Below are positions 12,036 through 27,992 of a DNA stretch of 32,012 nucleotides, piece after piece; within the stretch, counting starts at the first letter, position 1; each line of letters begins with the position of its first letter. Origin of the DNA: Bacteroidota bacterium. GTDB lineage: Bacteria; Bacteroidota; Bacteroidia; CAILMK01. The notes under the pieces are model-generated. The model saw only the letters and a program-made list of their open reading frames with translations, ran no database searches and was not told the origin of the DNA. Position numbers and translations under genes: made by a program. Location of the stretch: contig JAPLCZ010000239.1 of assembly GCA_026391915.1 (NCBI GenBank), forward strand, positions 1 through 32,012, read 5' to 3'.

Positions 12036-14087
12036 CTAAAACCCAATATTCATCTGCAACTTAAACTCCGTTTTGTGGGGGGCATTTATTAAATCATTGC
12101 CGCTACCAATGGTGTTTTGGTTGAGGTATTCTGTACGGGTGGCTTTGGCGTAGAGCTTAATTTTTCTGTTGATTTTATAGGAAACCACTGCATAGTATTT
12201 CATCCCTTGCCCAGAAAAAGAAGGGATGGAAAATACAAAAGGCATATCATCCTCGTAAGCATAAATTCTTGCGTTATAATCGTTGATGTCAAACAAATAA
12301 TAGCGGGCTGTGATGCTATATCTTTTCTTCATGGGCTGCCACGCCACACCCTGATAACCCAAGAACCCATGCCCAACAGTTGCAGTAGTTTTTTCACTGT
12401 AAAAAACCGACTCAACTCTTGATTGCAATGTCCATTCTGGTGAGGGTTTAAAATGAATTTCAGCACGCATACTTTGGCGGAGATTGGTTTGCAGTTGCAC
12501 CTCGGTATTATTGTAGGAGGAAGAAATATTATGTTCTTTTTCTTCCCGCTTAAACCGCAGGTTTAAAGAGAATTTTTTGTTGGGGATATAGAGAAAATCT
12601 ATCAAGGCATCTTTGCCAATAGTACCTGGAGAACTCACCAGATATTTGAGCCACGGGAAAGAATAAGCATCAAAATAGCCATTGAAAATAAACTGTGGTT
12701 TGGGCTTCCATTGCATCCCGATATAAGTTCCTTTTTCGTTGGTATTATCTGTGGCTTCACTAAAGCCATTTGAGTAAGGAGCAAAATATCCAGCCGAATA
12801 ATTCCTGTTAATAATACTTGCCTGTAAGGTTGGATGAAGGCTAATCAGCGCACCATTGATGGTGGCATAAGAACCCAAAACTCCAGCAGCAGTTTCTCCA
12901 AAGAAATAGATATTGCGGAAAAGGTAACGGTAATTAACCCCCACATTATAAAAGTTTTTGCCAGAGAATCTATAACTCTTAACCCCTGAATCTTTGGCGG
13001 GTTGAAACGGTATGCCATAGCTGCCATACATTGCAGAAACTCCCACTTTAAACATGCCTTTTGTATAGGATAAATCACCACCGGTGAGGAACTCATTGAG
13101 TTGATGTTTTGTTGCCAACTCTGCCGTGGTGCGGTGGTAGCCACTTTGGTAAATGCTGCTAAAATAATCGTCTTTTGTGGTGAGGGTATCCTGATTGAAA
13201 ATGTTGGCGTCAATCTTTTTATAAGAGAAAAATTGCGTGAGAGCAACTGATTTCCCCAGGGCTAAAGTATAAGCGCCGCCCCGCATAAATCTATATTCTC
13301 CTGCTGATTTATAAGGCAACAATCCGCTAGCATCTCTGAGGACATTCGTAGCATCAGCGGTTTTGGAAGGTGCAAATCCTGTCCACAAAACAAGCCCTTG
13401 TCCGGTTTGCATTTGGAAATCACCAACAGCAATTTTGCGTATGAGTTTTTTGCCAGTATAAAACAGATGCGCTGAATAAAAATCAAAGCCCTGTTTTTGG
13501 CTTCCCTTAAAGAATTCTTCGCCCTCATCTTTATCCGCAGTGATGCCGGCACTCAGCCGTGTGCTTGCCACAAAATTGTATTTCCCGTAAAGGTGAAATG
13601 GAGAGCCGGGGTATTTTCCATTGGTGTAGCCAGCAGGGGTTTCGGCAAGTTTTACGGTTCTTAAAATGATATTGTTATAGCCATGTTTCACCTCATCCCA
13701 GAAAGGCTTTTCCAGTTGTTCATCCACAGAAATAAAAGGCAAGATTCTCTCAATATCTTCTAACTCAAAACCATCGATACTTTGGAGTTCTAAAGTAGAA
13801 ATCAGTTTGCCGTTTTCTGCAATATGTGCCAGTAAATTATTGATTTGGATTTGTGTGAGAAGAAACAATTTTGAGAGCTCCTCACGGCTTGCAGTATTGA
13901 GGTCAATAGGGTTATCATAAAGCCCCTCAAGCTGGGTTTGTAAATCCGTAAAATCAGCAGATGCATCAATGGATTGGGCGTACTGCTCAATAGTTTTTTT
14001 GATGCGTTCCTCTTTGGTTTCCTGCGCAAAAAGAGTAGCACTCATCAGCAGAAATGCAAGAAGTATTTTGCAGCCTACTGATTTCAT
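12036..14087 (-). CDS. Helix-hairpin-helix protein fused to an outer-membrane beta-barrel
   Basis: 683 aa. Signal peptide about 1-21 (ending TLFAQ). Residues about 58-122 carry paired helix-hairpin-helix motifs of ComEA type (NPIDLNTASREEL, then LQSIDGFELEDIERILPFI), a fold that normally binds DNA without sequence preference. From about 140 to the end there are many amphipathic strands with aromatic edges (LYGKYNFVAS, YYAVVSYKINRKIKLYAKATRTEYL), ending in a barrel-like FKLQMNIGF. Export plus a DNA-binding fold suggests a periplasmic domain hung from an outer-membrane barrel. The start overlaps the stop of the PorV-like gene by ATGA, so translation is likely coupled. A role in DNA uptake is a guess; the HhH could instead contact protein. 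Confidence 0.82.
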   Translation of the reverse strand: MKSVGCKILLAFLLMSATLFAQETKEERIKKTIEQYAQSIDASADFTDLQTQLEGLYDNPIDLNTASREELSKLFLLTQIQINNLLAHIAENGKLISTLELQSIDGFELEDIERILPFISVDEQLEKPFWDEVKHGYNNIILRTVKLAETPAGYTNGKYPGSPFHLYGKYNFVASTRLSAGITADKDEGEEFFKGSQKQGFDFYSAHLFYTGKKLIRKIAVGDFQMQTGQGLVLWTGFAPSKTADATNVLRDASGLLPYKSAGEYRFMRGGAYTLALGKSVALTQFFSYKKIDANIFNQDTLTTKDDYFSSIYQSGYHRTTAELATKHQLNEFLTGGDLSYTKGMFKVGVSAMYGSYGIPFQPAKDSGVKSYRFSGKNFYNVGVNYRYLFRNIYFFGETAAGVLGSYATINGALISLHPTLQASIINRNYSAGYFAPYSNGFSEATDNTNEKGTYIGMQWKPKPQFIFNGYFDAYSFPWLKYLVSSPGTIGKDALIDFLYIPNKKFSLNLRFKREEKEHNISSSYNNTEVQLQTNLRQSMRAEIHFKPSPEWTLQSRVESVFYSEKTTATVGHGFLGYQGVAWQPMKKRYSITARYYLFDINDYNARIYAYEDDMPFVFSIPSFSGQGMKYYAVVSYKINRKIKLYAKATRTEYLNQNTIGSGNDLINAPHKTEFKLQMNIGF

Positions 14088-14905
14088 TTTTGGTCTTTAA
14101 TATATTCCAGACTCACATCTGGCGAAGCGCCTAAAACTTCATAAACGCCAAAGCCAATATGCAGTTTTACGCCTTGATAAATTACCCCTAAACCAAAAGA
14201 ATACACCATAGGGTTGGTGCGGACCCCCAATTGTAATTCTACATTTTTAGTGGGTACGTATTCTACGCCTCCACGCAAACTCAAAGGCTTATTGAGTTGC
14301 TGAGAAACTTCCGTAATCAGTATTACATTTTTTGAAATATCTTTTTTTGCAGATGCCCTTAAAATGGTGGGCAATCTTTCATCCTGATAAGAGATAATTT
14401 TTGCCGGTGCAGGGTTCCAAATGTTTAAACCCACCGCCAAAGTTTGGGTAGGATAATAGTTAAATCCCAACTCACCAATGCCAGTAATCTGGCTGCCATA
14501 ATAATCTATTTTGGTATGAAGAACATGCATCCCAACACCCGCAGAGATTTGTTTACTTAATTTCAATCCGTAGCTCAGCGTTATGTTTTGTTGGGTATAA
14601 TATTTACTAATCCCAAACTGATAAAGCCCCGCCCCCAATACCCCCGATTTGCCTAAAGGAATGGCAAAAGCCAATGCCCCGTTAGAAAGTTCACGCACAT
14701 TAAAACGCCTCTCCGTCCACACACCAGCTCTGAAATTTTTCACCTGACCTAATGCTGCAGGAGTATTGGTGCTTGCCCAAACATCCTCCAATAAAATACT
14801 ACAACCACCAAGAGATTGCGCCCTGCCACCCGCCATATATGGGCTTTGGCAAAAAGCATTTGAACCAAAAAGTAGAAATAGAAAAGCCGTTAGAAATAAC
14901 TTCAT
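14084..14905 (-). CDS. PorV/PorQ-like outer-membrane barrel protein
   Basis: 273 aa with a signal peptide ending NAFCQ. The mature start, MAGGRAQSLGGCSILLEDVWASTNTPAALG, matches the conserved N-terminus of the PorV/PorQ/UPF0164 branch of FadL-like barrels, where G-R-A and an N-P-A-like turn are typical. The remainder is repeated beta strands (AFAIPLGKSGVLGAGLYQF, ELQLGVRTNPMVYSFGLGVIY). It is shorter than characterised PorV proteins, so it is better treated as a relative than as PorV itself. It ends within the start codon of the HhH-barrel gene (14084-14087), indicating a coupled pair that may work together in the outer membrane. Confidence 0.78.
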   Translation of the reverse strand: MKLFLTAFLFLLFGSNAFCQSPYMAGGRAQSLGGCSILLEDVWASTNTPAALGQVKNFRAGVWTERRFNVRELSNGALAFAIPLGKSGVLGAGLYQFGISKYYTQQNITLSYGLKLSKQISAGVGMHVLHTKIDYYGSQITGIGELGFNYYPTQTLAVGLNIWNPAPAKIISYQDERLPTILRASAKKDISKNVILITEVSQQLNKPLSLRGGVEYVPTKNVELQLGVRTNPMVYSFGLGVIYQGVKLHIGFGVYEVLGASPDVSLEYIKDQK

Positions 14906-19627: not shown

Positions 19628-21193
19628 ATGCAAAAAAAGCCAGACCTTAGAGATTATATATTTCTATTTGGATTATTATTTTCTTTTGGGTTAGAGGCAC
19701 AGGATACAACCACCGCATGGATGAGAAACTATGGGGGAAATAAGGCTGACCAATTTTCAACTTCTGTGCTGGCAACTAAGGATAGCGGTTATATCTTCTT
19801 AAATAGTACTAATGGAACAGATAGTAATGTTGCCTCAATATATGGAAGCGGAGATGATGATTTGTGGGTTGTAAAGACTGATAAAAAAGGTATTATAGAA
19901 TGGGAAAAAAATTACGGATGTTCCGTTGATGATTTACCCGCCAATATTTTATTAACCCAAGACAGTTGTTATCTAATATCTGGAACTGTAGATAAGAATG
20001 ACAGTGATGTTACTATTTCAAAAGGTGGATATGATATATGGCTAGCCAAGATAGATAGAAATGGAAAATTACTTTGGGAAAAATCTTATGGAGGAAGTGA
20101 TATTGAGCAAATTTTTAAAATAATCAATACCCCTTTTGACAGTGGTTATATTTTCACAGGATATACTCTATCCAATAATAAAGATGTAAAAAGTAATAAA
20201 GGAGGGGGTGATATTTGGGTAGTTAAATTAGATAAAAACGGAAAAATATTATGGCAGAAAACATATGGGGGGAGTGATTATGATGAACCAAATGATATTA
20301 TACAAACCCCAGAAGACGGAGGCTATTTAGTTTGCGGCAGAACTCGTTCTGCCGATGGTGATATCAAAGCCAATATTGGTGACGATGATGGCTTTATACT
20401 TAAATTAGATAAAAAAGGGGGGGTAATATGGGAAAAAAACTACGGTAGTAATGAGGCTGACGTCCTTGAAGCAATTATTAGAATGCCTGATACTTCGTAC
20501 ATTTTAACAGGTTATAAAAAATATAGTTTTACTTTAACATCAGGGGATTTGTGGGTATTGAAAATTAAAAATAAATCGACAGTTGTATTTGATAGAAAGT
20601 TTGGTGGCAGTAACTCAGAAGGAGCACATTGCATAGTAGCAACAAATGATTCAGGCGTTCTTATAGGCGGTTGGACTGAATCTCACGATGGGGATGTAAC
20701 TGGAGCATATAATCAGTATAGTACTGTCGGTTGGATATTAAGTGTTAGCAAATCTGGCGCGCTGAAATGGCAAAAAATAGTTGGTGATACATCTAAATTT
20801 AGTAAAACATTGTTAAACTCTGTAGCAGTTACTTTGGATAACGGATTTATCTTTTCAGGATTAAATCAAACAGGCATTAATGCACTTGCCTTAAAACTAA
20901 AAGGAAATAAAATAATAACAGGTATGGAAGAAAGGCAGATACAGGCTCAGAATAAAGAATTAGTAATTTACCCCAACCCCGCCCAAGGCATATTCACCTT
21001 AAACTTAAGCACACCCCAAAGTGGTAAAATAGAAATAACCAATACCCTTGGGCAAAGTATATATACCCAAACTATAAAAGAAGAAAGCACAGCTACTATA
21101 GATTTAAGTAAGCAGGCTAAAGGGGTGTATATTGTAGAATTAATAATTAATAATGAAGAATTAAGAATTTATAAGAAGGTGGTGGTGGAGTAA
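19628..21193 (+). CDS. T9SS-exported protein with WxKxYGG repeats and type A sorting domain
   Basis: 521 aa. A signal-like segment (FLFGLLFSFGLEAQ) precedes about seven units of roughly 55-60 residues. Each unit has W-x-K-x-Y/F-G-G followed by D/E-rich and SGYIFTG-type strands (WEKSYGGSD, WQKTYGGSD, WEKNYGSNE). These look like delta-60/propeller-type repeats. Residues about 448-521 form a T9SS type A C-terminal sorting domain: VIYPNPAQGIFTLNLS, IEITNTLGQSIYTQTI, IDLSKQAKGVYIVELI and a basic last strand. The protein should cross the outer membrane by type IX secretion and end up at the surface or released. The repeats may fold as a propeller; no enzyme motif is visible. Confidence 0.87.
   Translation: MQKKPDLRDYIFLFGLLFSFGLEAQDTTTAWMRNYGGNKADQFSTSVLATKDSGYIFLNSTNGTDSNVASIYGSGDDDLWVVKTDKKGIIEWEKNYGCSVDDLPANILLTQDSCYLISGTVDKNDSDVTISKGGYDIWLAKIDRNGKLLWEKSYGGSDIEQIFKIINTPFDSGYIFTGYTLSNNKDVKSNKGGGDIWVVKLDKNGKILWQKTYGGSDYDEPNDIIQTPEDGGYLVCGRTRSADGDIKANIGDDDGFILKLDKKGGVIWEKNYGSNEADVLEAIIRMPDTSYILTGYKKYSFTLTSGDLWVLKIKNKSTVVFDRKFGGSNSEGAHCIVATNDSGVLIGGWTESHDGDVTGAYNQYSTVGWILSVSKSGALKWQKIVGDTSKFSKTLLNSVAVTLDNGFIFSGLNQTGINALALKLKGNKIITGMEERQIQAQNKELVIYPNPAQGIFTLNLSTPQSGKIEITNTLGQSIYTQTIKEESTATIDLSKQAKGVYIVELIINNEELRIYKKVVVE
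21139..21172. repeat. AT-rich TTAATAAT minisatellite inside the sorting domain
   Basis: AATTAATAATTAATAATGAAG and the following AATTAAGAATT form a short AT-rich repeat that encodes the INNEELRI part of the last sorting-domain strand. Confidence 0.5.
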
Positions 21194-21968: not shown

Positions 21969-24900
21969 CTATTCGCCGTCATCTTTTTCATCTGCTTTTT
22001 TCTTTTCCTCTTCCGCCTTTTTCTTTTCTTCTTTTTCGCGTTTCTTTCTTTCTTGTTTGGTCTCCACTTTAGGCTCTTCTTTTTTGCTGTCGTCTTTTAT
22101 GGTTTCATCTTTTTTACCATCTGTTTCCACAGCATTATCTTTCTTCTCCTCGGTCTTTTTCTCCTCTTCCTTTTTTAATTCTGCCGCCTTCTTTTCCTCT
22201 TCTTTCTTGAGGTCTGCAGCTTTCTTTTCTTCATCCATTAACTTCTTGGCTTCCTCATCTGCTTTCTTCTTTTCTTCTTTTTCGCGTTTCTTTTTCTCTT
22301 TAGCAGTTTCTTTCGGCGCCTCTGTAGTAGTAGAGTCTTTTACAGTTTCTTCTTTCTTTTCTTCTACTTTTTTATCCTCAGTTTTTTTGTCTTCTTCCTT
22401 ATTTAAATCTGCGGCTTTTTTCTCTTCATCTGCTTTTTTCTTGGCTTCTTCTTCCGCCTTTTTCTTTTCTTCTTTTTCGCGTTTCTTTCTCTCTTTATTG
22501 GTTTCCTTTGGCACTTCCGTGGTGGTAGAGTCTTTTACCATTTCCTCCTTTTTTTCTTCAATCTTTTTGGGTTCCTCTTTCTTCTCTTCGGTTTTAATTT
22601 CTTCTTCTTTCTTAGGCTCTACTTTTTTCTTTATAGGATCTCCATTTTCATCGTATTCTTCTTCAGTATCATCACTTTTTACACCACCTAGTTTTTCCTT
22701 TTTAGGGTCATTGGAGAAAAACATATCCAGATCTTTGGCTTTAAATTTCATTACGCCATCCACCGTTTCCTGCTCTAAACTAAAGCTGCCCTTGCTGTTC
22801 TTTTCCAACTTGCCCTGTATCTCTTTTATCTTATCCACGTATGCCATTTCATTACCCAAATAATAGAGTGTTCTGTTAACAAATTTAAAGTAATGATAAT
22901 TTTCATTAAGGGTTTCCAACAGCATCCCAAAAGTGCTTTGGGTTTCGGTTTGTTTTACGGCAATCATCCCATTCAGAGATTTATTGATGGGTGCTTTTTT
23001 AATGGTAGCCAAGCCAATAGGGCCTTCGGAGAAAAACCCTCCTGCGCTATCAGAGAAAACCATGTTTACGGAGCTGAAAACAAACATCCTGTTGGCTGCA
23101 TCTGCAGAGGCAATGTATTTATAAGATGAGAGTTCATTAATGATTTTTTCTCTGTCCTTTTTCTCTTTCATCATCAATACAAAAGCATTGTAGGTAGCAG
23201 GCGTGATACCTGTAATTTCACCCATGGTGTAGGAGGTCATTAGTATGTTATCAGAAATCAATTTTGTGATGTCATCATTCCAAGGAAAGTTGACAATCAT
23301 TGCCACATTAAAGTTGTGCTTATTATCCGTGAGCCTTTGGGTAAAACTTCCTGCAGATTTAATCTCTACCTTCTTCCCAAATTTACCTCCGAATTTATAT
23401 TCACCCTCAGTGTAAACTTCTCCATCTTGTTCTTGTAACTGGAAAGTATTGCCACCAACAAACATGGGTATTTCAGTAGTGGGCGGTATAAGTTTTCTGC
23501 GTTCACCAAGTATAAATAGTTTTTGTTTTTCGTCATAGGTAAATAATCCAGATGTGCTAAAAACTTCCCTATCTGTTGGGTGTATTTTTTTACCAAAAAG
23601 GAGACTATACATCTTCCATTTGCCATCACGGTTATTGAGATATGTGCCGGTAAAAAGCTCTTTATTATCTTCTCCAAACGCCTTAGGGAAATCATACAAC
23701 ACATTTTTAGCATCAATAGTATCTGATGTTTTTACCCATGCGGTACGCAATTGCGGGTAACTATGTTCCGGCATTATGCTGCCATTAAACCAAAGATTTT
23801 TTTCTTCTGACTCAAGTGTAACTGCACCTTTAAAAAGTATTTTTGGCCACACATGGAAGTGTTGGGTATCACGGATAGTAGCTACTGCCTCTGTGGTATT
23901 ATCCTCTGTTGTGTGGATGTCATTAAAAAGTATTTTTATAGAGTCATCATTTTTATCAACATAATTATAAGTACCAAACCCGGTGTATTTATTTTTAGAG
24001 AAAATGTTTACTGTTGCATGATGAATTCTGTGATACCTATTAGTTGCATTTGCTATAATTACGGCATCAACAATGGTTTTAATAACGCCCTCTTTTTGTA
24101 CTGTTATTGACCTATCATTGGTAGCAATTTTAGCATCTGCAATTTCCAATTCTGGTACTTCAAAAGCTTTTAAATTCAGGCTATCCAATTTGTATCTTGC
24201 CTTGGCAGAGGTGAACTGTAAATTCTCTTGGGTTGGATTATCCGATTTAAAATAGGCGTCCTTTTCATTTTGTGAAGCAGTTCGTTCAAAGTTAATTTCC
24301 TTCTCTTTTAAATCATAGGTAAAGCTATTAAGCGTGGTAGAAAATTGCTGTGATGGCAGTTTAACTTTAGTAGTATCGCTATTGGTATTGAACTTAGCAA
24401 AATCCTTTTTCAAATCAAGATTTGCATTAACGCCATTAGTCATCAATGCATATTTTTTTGAGGCATCTGATTTAATAATCAAGTTACCATCTTTGGTGAT
24501 GATGTTATCCGGTTTAAAAGCAAAATTTTGAGATTGCAACTGTATATTTTGATAGTTGGTAATCCCCTTACCCACCAATTCTACAGGGGTTAGCACAAAG
24601 CTCCCTTGGAAAATAACTTTGTCCTTATAAATCTGTATGGGCTCTTTGCGTTTGAACACAAACATGCTATCAGCATATGGCAACCAATGATTATATACAC
24701 TCTTCCCATCCACAGGTGGATATAGTCCGCCTGCAATTTCAGGGATGTTAAAAACATCAGCATTGGTATTCATAGAGTCCGGAAAGAAAACAAAATCCTG
24801 AGAGGTGGTATGGGAAACAAGGTAGTCGGTTTTTCCATTGCCATGCAGTCCTTTATTAGAGAGAAGATATTTCCCAAACCCTTTTCCTTTTCCTCTGTAT

Positions 24901-25022
24901 AGTGCATAGCCTTCTGTGGGGGCTTCTTTAATAAACCCAAGAGAATAATCAGGCTGAATGGTTAAATCATATTTGATATCCGGAAGAATACCCGCGGAAA
25001 CAAAAGTACCCGGAAACTTCAA
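21969..25022 (-). CDS. Second part of a split large exported protein, Lys/Glu-rich tail
   Basis: 1017 codons in exactly the same frame as the gene at 25023-27194, separated from it only by one TGA. The frame reopens with TTG, no ATG occurs until residue 84, and there is no signal peptide, so independent expression as an envelope protein is unlikely. Residues 1 to about 750 are strand-rich with patterns such as KFPGTFVSAGILPDIKYDL, FTYDLKEKEINFERTA and AIVNFPWNDDITKLIS; no known domain is recognised. The last ~260 residues are almost entirely K/E/D/A with REKEEKKKAEEEAKK units and look like extended coiled coil or disordered tail. This is probably the C-terminal part of a 1741-codon gene with a nonsense mutation, a sequence error or stop readthrough. 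Confidence 0.7.
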   Translation of the reverse strand: MKFPGTFVSAGILPDIKYDLTIQPDYSLGFIKEAPTEGYALYRGKGKGFGKYLLSNKGLHGNGKTDYLVSHTTSQDFVFFPDSMNTNADVFNIPEIAGGLYPPVDGKSVYNHWLPYADSMFVFKRKEPIQIYKDKVIFQGSFVLTPVELVGKGITNYQNIQLQSQNFAFKPDNIITKDGNLIIKSDASKKYALMTNGVNANLDLKKDFAKFNTNSDTTKVKLPSQQFSTTLNSFTYDLKEKEINFERTASQNEKDAYFKSDNPTQENLQFTSAKARYKLDSLNLKAFEVPELEIADAKIATNDRSITVQKEGVIKTIVDAVIIANATNRYHRIHHATVNIFSKNKYTGFGTYNYVDKNDDSIKILFNDIHTTEDNTTEAVATIRDTQHFHVWPKILFKGAVTLESEEKNLWFNGSIMPEHSYPQLRTAWVKTSDTIDAKNVLYDFPKAFGEDNKELFTGTYLNNRDGKWKMYSLLFGKKIHPTDREVFSTSGLFTYDEKQKLFILGERRKLIPPTTEIPMFVGGNTFQLQEQDGEVYTEGEYKFGGKFGKKVEIKSAGSFTQRLTDNKHNFNVAMIVNFPWNDDITKLISDNILMTSYTMGEITGITPATYNAFVLMMKEKKDREKIINELSSYKYIASADAANRMFVFSSVNMVFSDSAGGFFSEGPIGLATIKKAPINKSLNGMIAVKQTETQSTFGMLLETLNENYHYFKFVNRTLYYLGNEMAYVDKIKEIQGKLEKNSKGSFSLEQETVDGVMKFKAKDLDMFFSNDPKKEKLGGVKSDDTEEEYDENGDPIKKKVEPKKEEEIKTEEKKEEPKKIEEKKEEMVKDSTTTEVPKETNKERKKREKEEKKKAEEEAKKKADEEKKAADLNKEEDKKTEDKKVEEKKEETVKDSTTTEAPKETAKEKKKREKEEKKKADEEAKKLMDEEKKAADLKKEEEKKAAELKKEEEKKTEEKKDNAVETDGKKDETIKDDSKKEEPKVETKQERKKREKEEKKKAEEEKKKADEKDDGE
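21997..22560. repeat. 195-bp duplicated units in the K/E-rich coding tail
   Basis: Two units offset by 195 bp (about 22170-22365 and 22365-22560, 65 codons) each encode VKDSTTTE, PKET, KKREKEEKKKA and EEKKAADL in the same order. A third, partial unit at about 21997-22062 encodes ERKKREKEEKKKAEEE. Unit boundaries are approximate. Confidence 0.75.
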
Positions 25023-25025
25023 TCA
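25023..25025 (-). other. In-frame TGA interrupting a 1741-codon reading frame
   Basis: The codon order on the minus strand is GCA GAA TGA TTG AAG TTT, with the frame open for 723 codons before and 1017 codons after. Protein character continues smoothly across it (IENLDHFTAE, stop, LKFPGTFVSAGI). Confidence 0.85.
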
Positions 25026-27194
25026 TTCTGCTGTAAAATGGTCAAGATTTTCTATTACAAACGGGTCTATACGAAAGAAAAAACTATCCTTTAAATACAC
25101 CCCGCCATAGATACTTTTTTTATCATAATACACATAAGATTCTTTGGTACACCTAAAAATAGGATACTCTATATATGGCTTTTTGCCTGACTTATTATTG
25201 CCTTTATCAATGTATAAAAAGCCTGTAATTTTTTGGATGGTATTCTGGATGTCATGCATCTCAATCTCATTTCCTTTATCATCAAACTCGGGGAATTTAA
25301 ATTTTAATGAGTCAATATTATCCAGATTAATTTTGAAAGAATCATAATCAAAATACATCCCGTTGCCCCAAAAATTAAACCTGCCACTATGCACCATTCC
25401 ATTAAAAACCATGTCACGATTTTTTAAAAATTTTACCGTTTTATTTAATGGAATAATATAGGTTTGTTGGGAGTCACTAAGCTTAATAAGGCTTACCCCA
25501 AGCACTGTAAGCTCTTTGGTATTCATATCATAAACACCATTAGGCCTGCCAGATAAATTGGAGATAAATTTAATAACATCAAAGTCTTCTCCTTTGTTGG
25601 CAGCCCTTTCATAATGGGCTAATTTATTTTTTTGGGTTACTGTTTTCCCATCAATATCATAAAAAATATAACCCTCCCTACTCAGCAAAATAAGCAGTGC
25701 AAGCATATTATCTGGGGTATTGCCAAAGTAGCCAGCAACTGCATCAATAGTGGCAGTGTTGCTACCGTTTTTATCAAAGAAATTTTTAAGTTTGGTGATA
25801 GGGTTATAGTCCAAAATCCCCTGCAACTGCAACATCTTGTCAATGTTAAAAAAGTTGGAAGACTCAAAAGAAATATCCTTAGGTGTATTGGAGATGGATT
25901 TCAAATTCATTTTGGTGGAGTCCAAATCCCAGATAATATTATCTGGTGAAAACTCCAGCTGATGATAACTGTTAAAGAATGGGCTTGCAAAAACGCCCTC
26001 ATCTTTACGCGCCATGGTTAGCCTCCTGGTCTTTTCATTATAGTTGAAAATACATTGCGGATGATAAATGGAATCTCCATCACCAATGTAAATTGTTATT
26101 GATGCCTTTGAAGAAACCAATTTATCTTTTGCAATCACAAAAGAACGTGCTAGGGCTTTTACAGTTAGTTTACCATTAGAAAAAACCGTTACCATTGCCC
26201 TTGTACTATCCGCACTTTTACCAATAATCTGTGCACCCTCTAAACTAAAGCCCCCATAATAATTTATGTTTTGAAATACGTTGTTCAACTTAAATACATT
26301 TTGGTAAGAGCTAAACCTTGGGTAGCTTGCCTTTTCTCCTTGGAAGGTAGCCGTAACCTTATCAGAAAATCTTCCTAAAACCGGGGTTTTAAAAAGTGAA
26401 GGATAGGTAAGTTCAGCTGAGTCCGAACTATAATCAGAAGTCCGTAAATCAAAGTAATATTTCTTCAACTTAACGGATGCTTTTTCTCTCCCAAAACCAA
26501 CCCTAGCCCAGTATACATTTCCACCAGTACCTCGCCATTTGTTTGTGTTGATGTAATAGATGCCTGATGTTGTATAGATGCTCATGGTATCAGCCCTGCT
26601 ATAGAGTTGCAAATCTGTAGCACTGAAAGTTATGGTAGGTTCTTTTTTAAATTCTAAAAGATATGCGTTGCTGCTCACTCTCCATTTTTTGCCGCCATTG
26701 TCTGCCAATATCTGGTCTTGGAACAAACTAAACATAGACTCGTTAAACCCTCTGAATTCCTTTTTTTGTTTCTCAATAATTTGCCCCAACACCTCGCTAT
26801 AAGCGTTAAAAATATCCGATGAAAGTTTCTTATTTTTAATCATCAAAATATTATTAAAATACCCCTGAAAATCCGGGTAAGGGCGCATTTTAACTTTCAA
26901 CATTTTGTTGCAAATAGCAATTATTTGTTGTTGTTCATCCAAAGAAAATCCACCTGTTTTCCATTTATCTAAAAAATCAAACATGGATTTTTTTGCATCA
27001 TCCACTGCTACTTCTGTAAAAAAGGTTTTTATCTCTTTTACAAACGCAGCGGTATCTGTGCTAAATTCTTTAAGAATCTTCCTCTCCACTTTGGGTTCAT
27101 CATTAGCATTTGTTCTTAGGATAGGTTTGTTTTGTGAGAATCCAGCAAAAAACAAAAAGGACAGAAACGAAATGAGAAGTATTTTCTTAATCAT
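25023..27194 (-). CDS. First part of a split large exported protein, unknown function
   Basis: 723 aa, signal peptide MIKKILLISFLSFLFFAGFSQ. Residues about 40-165 are helical (EIKTFFTEVAVDDAKKSMFDF, EVLGQIIEKQKKEF). Thereafter strand-rich sequence dominates (IYTTSGIYYINTNKWRG, YYFDLRTSDYSSDSAELTYPSLFKTPVLG, GGFSLEGAQIIGKSADS), with a short helical insert around 470-540 (TIDAVAGYFGNTPDNMLALLILLSREGYIFYD). The repeated strand-turn pattern resembles large periplasmic or outer-membrane-associated proteins of Bacteroidota, but no named family is recognised. The frame ends at a TGA after FTAE and continues in the same frame downstream. The signal peptide sits only on this piece, so the intact product would be a roughly 1741-residue exported protein. 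Confidence 0.75.
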   Translation of the reverse strand: MIKKILLISFLSFLFFAGFSQNKPILRTNANDEPKVERKILKEFSTDTAAFVKEIKTFFTEVAVDDAKKSMFDFLDKWKTGGFSLDEQQQIIAICNKMLKVKMRPYPDFQGYFNNILMIKNKKLSSDIFNAYSEVLGQIIEKQKKEFRGFNESMFSLFQDQILADNGGKKWRVSSNAYLLEFKKEPTITFSATDLQLYSRADTMSIYTTSGIYYINTNKWRGTGGNVYWARVGFGREKASVKLKKYYFDLRTSDYSSDSAELTYPSLFKTPVLGRFSDKVTATFQGEKASYPRFSSYQNVFKLNNVFQNINYYGGFSLEGAQIIGKSADSTRAMVTVFSNGKLTVKALARSFVIAKDKLVSSKASITIYIGDGDSIYHPQCIFNYNEKTRRLTMARKDEGVFASPFFNSYHQLEFSPDNIIWDLDSTKMNLKSISNTPKDISFESSNFFNIDKMLQLQGILDYNPITKLKNFFDKNGSNTATIDAVAGYFGNTPDNMLALLILLSREGYIFYDIDGKTVTQKNKLAHYERAANKGEDFDVIKFISNLSGRPNGVYDMNTKELTVLGVSLIKLSDSQQTYIIPLNKTVKFLKNRDMVFNGMVHSGRFNFWGNGMYFDYDSFKINLDNIDSLKFKFPEFDDKGNEIEMHDIQNTIQKITGFLYIDKGNNKSGKKPYIEYPIFRCTKESYVYYDKKSIYGGVYLKDSFFFRIDPFVIENLDHFTAE

Positions 27195-27320: not shown

Positions 27321-27992
27321 TTACAGCCCCTTCATTAGCCTGCAAACCCTTACGCCATCTGCAGTTTGTACTTTAACAAAGTAGATTCCTTTGCTGAAAT
27401 TTTCAAGGTTGAGGTGCTCTGCATAGCCTTGATTTTTCAAAAGTATTCTGCCTGATAAATCTGAAATTGATATGCTTTCAATCTTCTCAGAAGCAGGTGC
27501 AGTGATATAAATCCCCTCTGAAAATGGGTTAGGATAAACTTTAATTAAGTCTGTTGAATTGCCTAATTCTTCAACCAAAGTAACAGTTCTATTTACCCTG
27601 AATTCATTGGTGGGTGCTACCTGCAAGCCATTACCGGTTGGCCACACAATCACTATAGTATTAAGGTTAAAACTCTTTTTATTTTTGATGATAACATTAC
27701 CCGTAACTAAAGCGCTATCCTTTGCTTTTATAAAATGAAAATCAGCCTTACTATTACTTACCACGCCACTATCTGCCAAAAACATAAGGTTGGTAACCAC
27801 ATAAACTATGGCATCCTTGGCGCTATCCGTATTGATGATGGTGTACTGAACATTTACTGTATCACCCGTACTAAGTGTAGTAAGTGGGGTATTAATTTTT
27901 AATCCGCAGCTTTGGCAAAGCTTTAATGTTTGGGCATTGGCAGCACCCATTACAATAAAGGAAATAAGGATGGCAGTGAGTAGTTTCTTCAT
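27321..27992 (-). CDS. Small T9SS cargo protein with type A sorting domain
   Basis: 223 aa with signal peptide MKKLLTAILISFIVMGAANAQ. Residues about 22-140 form an immunoglobulin-like or CARDB-like beta domain (LKINTPLTTLSTGDTVNVQYTIINTDSAKDAIVYVV, NVIIKNKKSFNLNTIVIVWP) with two cysteines near the start (CQSC) that may bind or pair. Residues about 148-223 are a T9SS sorting domain: LIKVYPNPFSEGIYI, IESISISDLSGRILL, LNLENFSKGIYFVKVQT and a basic terminal strand. It should be secreted by type IX secretion. It is divergent from the 28086 gene. Confidence 0.85.
   Translation of the reverse strand: MKKLLTAILISFIVMGAANAQTLKLCQSCGLKINTPLTTLSTGDTVNVQYTIINTDSAKDAIVYVVTNLMFLADSGVVSNSKADFHFIKAKDSALVTGNVIIKNKKSFNLNTIVIVWPTGNGLQVAPTNEFRVNRTVTLVEELGNSTDLIKVYPNPFSEGIYITAPASEKIESISISDLSGRILLKNQGYAEHLNLENFSKGIYFVKVQTADGVRVCRLMKGL

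Follow-up and report, generated by a model that had tools for sequence, protein, structure and literature searches.

Is a long gene that is interrupted by a single stop codon still one gene, and if so, what is the stop? This question is raised by a locus on the minus strand of the window (the whole stretch of DNA analysed, 32,012 nucleotides from a draft genome of a Bacteroidota bacterium), where a lone in-frame TGA lies between two frames of 723 and 1,017 codons that share the same phase. The original prediction described this arrangement, including the absence of any ATG for 83 codons after the stop, and it was confirmed by the list of open reading frames (ORFs) and by direct reading of the letters. 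The translation holds no other stop within the 1,741 codons. The features of the locus are collected in Table 1.

Table 1. Coordinates of the interrupted gene and its parts within the window.
Feature	Position	Strand	Description and basis
Gene part 1	25026..27194	-	First 723 codons: signal peptide followed by a helical and then a beta-taco (Lpt-like) region; ORF, homology to the N-terminal half of the undivided protein of relatives, model
Interrupting in-frame TGA	25023..25025	-	Read directly; sense codon at the same column in relatives
Gene part 2	21969..25022	-	Remaining 1,017 codons, same frame, TAG end; ORF, homology to the C-terminal half in relatives
Conserved part of second half	22725..25022	-	About codons 725-1490, second beta-taco region; alignments, model, Lpt matches
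C-terminal tail, Lys/Glu-rich	21972..22724	-	Beyond the part common to the nearest relatives; translation
Probable signal peptide	27132..27194	-	First 21 codons; translation, by eye
TTG right after stop	25020..25022	-	Only nearby in-frame restart candidate; ordinary internal codon column in relatives

GC content at third positions is 0.351 in the first half and 0.354 in the second, and when the bases of the second frame were shuffled, it stayed open to its end in none of 2,000 trials. The prediction that the first frame carries a signal peptide and the second does not agrees with our inspection by eye, and the predicted model of the first half has a helix at residues 2-16, in the stretch assigned by eye to the signal peptide. 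As a TTG adjoins the TGA, a mechanical ORF caller places the start of the second frame at this codon; for its use as a restart we found no evidence, and it is listed as a candidate. The source genome contains one copy of the gene, so there is no intact duplicate to cover for the split one. As a separate observation, the Lys/Glu-rich tail comprises about 250 residues and is absent from the nearest relatives, which align only to about query codon 1490.

Comparison with relatives, which had been suggested as a check of the original prediction, gave a clear picture of the family. The search set consisted of 100 genomes, that is, the source genome and 99 relatives (the raw tally of 88/100 counts the source genome itself). 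By hand count, the second half was matched in 87 of the 99 relatives, with 12 lacking a match, and in 81 of these 87 the frame was open over 1,435 codons or more (hand count from the table of matches). The family is thus a single exported protein, about 1,500 residues long. The remaining six comprise one gene cut by a contig end (G046), three with shorter frames of 1,347, 1,266, and 1,059 codons (G062, G082, and G095, respectively), and two copies in single-contig genomes, L129 (G091) and L130 (G067), which are broken by frameshifts at positions unlike that of the TGA described here. At the column of the TGA, no stop occurs in any of 29 loci fetched first, 20 refetched with more flank, or 80 from a named collection. 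These three sets overlap. Of the 80 named-collection loci, 72 reach at least 650 residues upstream and at least 600 downstream of the site; in the remaining eight, the frame begins at the end of its contig. The residue at this column is mostly glycine (13 of 20 in the refetched set, with four Ala and one each of Arg, Lys, and Thr; 53 of 80 in the named collection). With no stop in 29/29, 20/20, and 80/80 loci, the family is one continuous protein and, as far as the aligned sequences go, the TGA is private to the source genome among the relatives examined. Identity to the nearest relatives is only about 51%, so no close strain is among the comparison genomes. In the relative G003, a full-length gene is accompanied by a second piece, 145 residues of the C-terminal part (contig 287, 5585-6022; 46% identical).

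If the stop had long been in place, the second half might be expected to show it. However, no second stop or frame change was found in its 1,017 codons. In the absence of constraint, a neutral divergence of 0.7-2% would suffice for a 95% chance of a second lesion, the range reflecting the assumed indel rate. In a rate test run without L072 (a gene cut by a contig end), the tree branch leading to the window was 0.41 for the second half, versus 0.53 and 0.56 for the nearest relatives; for the first half it was 0.47, versus 0.47 and 0.42. The lack of both a second lesion and an acceleration of the second half suggests a stop that is very recent, a strain variant, or an error in the consensus. Taken by itself, this lack of decay and acceleration would not distinguish a very young mutation or a strain variant from an error in the consensus or from readthrough.

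Several readings must therefore be weighed, beginning with those in which the TGA is not an ordinary stop. A genome-wide change of code, with UGA standing for an amino acid (tables 4 or 25), would account for a frame that is open through the TGA. The original prediction had judged this unlikely because other genes in the window end in TGA, an argument that holds for the ORF at 14084..14905, whose end overlaps the next gene's start, but for only this one of the 19 other ORFs checked. The judgement itself has become firmer: release factor 2 is present (prfB, 470 bits vs a cut-off of 370), no tRNA with a UCA anticodon is among those found by ARAGORN in 30 tRNA loci, and TGA ends 16 of 268 ORFs in a sample covering 12.5% of the genome (412,194 bases, 17,322 of which are masked). 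No other TGA split was seen among seven candidates in this sample, which are described below. Within the reach of these checks, a changed code is refuted, and we give it practically no credence. Selenocysteine insertion was likewise considered and rejected, since no SelB match exceeded the cut-off (genome completeness 95.6%) and those below it resemble other translation GTPases. A less drastic possibility is readthrough, in which UGA is decoded at some rate by the near-cognate tRNA-Trp or through another mechanism, giving mostly the short product and some full-length protein. In its favour, the second half has neither decayed nor accelerated, TGA is the rarest stop in the sample (TAA ends 166 ORFs and TAG 86), and in-frame stops in prokaryotic genes under purifying selection have been called widespread (Belinky et al. 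2021, PMC7918605). However, the same authors find such stops short-lived, and the stop described here is not conserved, being absent from every relative examined. The type of tRNA-Trp reported to decode UGA has a CCA anticodon and an anticodon stem of 4 bp (PMC13092985). That system resembles the present case in having a UGA inside a frame, but the tRNA-Trp of the source genome, also with anticodon CCA, has a stem of five pairs including one G-U (by eye), only one site is involved here, and the relatives have mostly Gly rather than Trp at that site. We thus regard readthrough as improbable. In sum, recoding at the TGA has no support, and of the causes originally listed, a recent nonsense mutation or strain variant and an error are kept, while readthrough lacks positive evidence.

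The other two alternatives accept the stop but give the gene a different history. The position of the TTG directly after the TGA might suggest two separate genes, with the start of the second at this TTG or at a later ATG. Yet the relatives have one frame, and none of those examined encodes two separate proteins with a conserved start for the second. In addition, inspection by eye shows no signal peptide in the second half, which begins in the middle of the homology, with conserved residues within a few codons of the stop, and the broken copies in two other genomes break elsewhere, by frameshift. The two-gene reading is rejected on the single frame of the relatives, and we consider it very improbable. 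An old pseudogene in the course of decay would agree with the interruption of the only copy. It is contradicted by the lack of further lesions and by a second half that is not accelerated, and we find it scarcely more credible than a changed code.

The quality of the assembly bears on whether the TGA exists in the cell at all. The draft consists of 325 contigs, and the single EF-Tu gene in it is disrupted by an internal deletion together with a frame change (L108 3817-4954, G000 contig 87): one piece corresponds to positions 1-121 of the family profile and the other, in a different frame, to positions 137-394. EF-Tu is full-length in 18 of 20 relatives. A living cell cannot do without EF-Tu, yet the only copy is broken, so at least one lesion in the consensus is probably false, and the EF-Tu break is probably an error of consensus or assembly. 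On the other side stands the search of the 412-kb sample for genes split in the same frame with a distant ATG. Of the seven candidates obtained, the TGA-split gene is the only one that resembles a true split; each of the remaining six appears to consist of two distinct genes lying side by side. In four of them the sides match different families (FAD monooxygenase and MnmC2, glycosyl transferase 4 and DprA, PanB and an RluA-type protein, and LUD and an LpxH-like protein). In the fifth, a restriction specificity subunit is paired with a protein whose match is weak (26.9 bits, short of the cut-off of 33.8), and the sixth pairs a four-helix protein with a sigma-factor-like frame. With only one real split among seven candidates, base errors that make stops are infrequent in the sample, which weakens the case for an error.

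We therefore consider it highly probable that the TGA is a recent or spurious nonsense change in the gene for one continuous exported protein, and that no recoding takes place. A true recent mutation or a strain variant has about an even chance, and an error, either a base error or a mixed-strain call in the consensus, somewhat less than an even one; we lean slightly toward the former. If the TGA is in the DNA of the cell, it would be very young or a strain variant and would work as a plain stop. Translation would then end after residue 723 with the release of a shortened, exported N-terminal half. Apart from traces arising from near-cognate readthrough, the C-terminal half would remain unmade, and the protein would in effect be knocked out. 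If the TGA is absent from the DNA of the cell, it would be a base error or a mixed-strain call in the consensus.

A nonsense change of this kind is ordinary. In-frame stops in bacterial genes are described as widespread, short-lived, and in part artefacts; as a guard against the latter, Belinky et al. studied stops that at least two genomes share (Belinky et al. 2021, PMC7918605). The isolated nonsense substitutions reported there resemble the present case: one in-frame stop lies in a constrained gene that is otherwise intact, and it is expected to be short-lived. The TGA described here differs in being found in one draft genome only and would fail the two-genome filter stated in that work. 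A literature search on stop codons in draft assemblies returned no paper that matched all terms. The case serves as a caution that a single draft genome can display a split gene without recoding.

Its possible importance lies in the gene that was hit, that is, a member of a conserved exported family without a named domain, whose predicted fold is like that of proteins carrying LPS across the periplasm. Neither half has a family match in Pfam or NCBIfam. Pfam matches at E values up to 0.1, taken over 46 members of each half, gave nothing above chance, and OstA, OstA_2, LptC, and LptD_2 were absent among them. Among PDB sequences there was no match of weight; one at E 0.064, to a piece of a transcription factor, was taken as chance. 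The predicted structures gave more. The two halves were folded apart with AlphaFold2, and the mean pLDDT was 90.2 for the first half and 89.8 for the second. A first look with Foldseek pointed to Lpt proteins for both halves. For the first half, the best 18 structural matches listed were to LptD, LptA, and LptC, with Z scores of 9.9-12.0 over about 120-150 residues and rmsd of 2.6-4.1; for the second half, the best 19 listed were likewise Lpt proteins, with Z scores of 8.9-13.6, the top one (13.6) extending over 151 residues with rmsd 2.8. Each half is thus predicted to hold at least one beta-taco stretch of the LptA/LptC/LptD type.

The likeness to the Lpt beta-taco proteins (LptA, LptC, and the periplasmic part of LptD) lies in the predicted fold of a stretch in each half, with Z about 9-14 and rmsd mostly about 3. 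The family differs from them in being far longer and in having no sequence match of weight to Pfam, NCBIfam, or PDB. Separate OstA_2 and LptD_2 genes are present elsewhere in the source genome. From the modelled fold, a role in the passage of LPS or lipids would be a guess. We raise as a tentative and rather doubtful possibility that this Bacteroidota-wide family of exported proteins (about 1,500 residues, with Lpt-like stretches) is undescribed and that its members may provide LPS or other lipids with a periplasmic bridge or scaffold made of a single chain, next to the products of the ordinary OstA_2 and LptD_2 genes. If so, the TGA would cut such a chain mid-way. No published description of the family was found in a search with few terms and partial coverage of the literature, judged by titles and the openings of abstracts.

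The locus had also been called the gene of a key envelope protein. This is plausible, given the export of the protein, its presence in 87 of 99 relatives, and its Lpt-like predicted fold, but the 12 relatives without a match mean that the family is not established as indispensable. In the neighbourhood of the split gene, two proteins with type IX secretion sorting domains are encoded, at 27321-27992 and 19628-21193 of the window.
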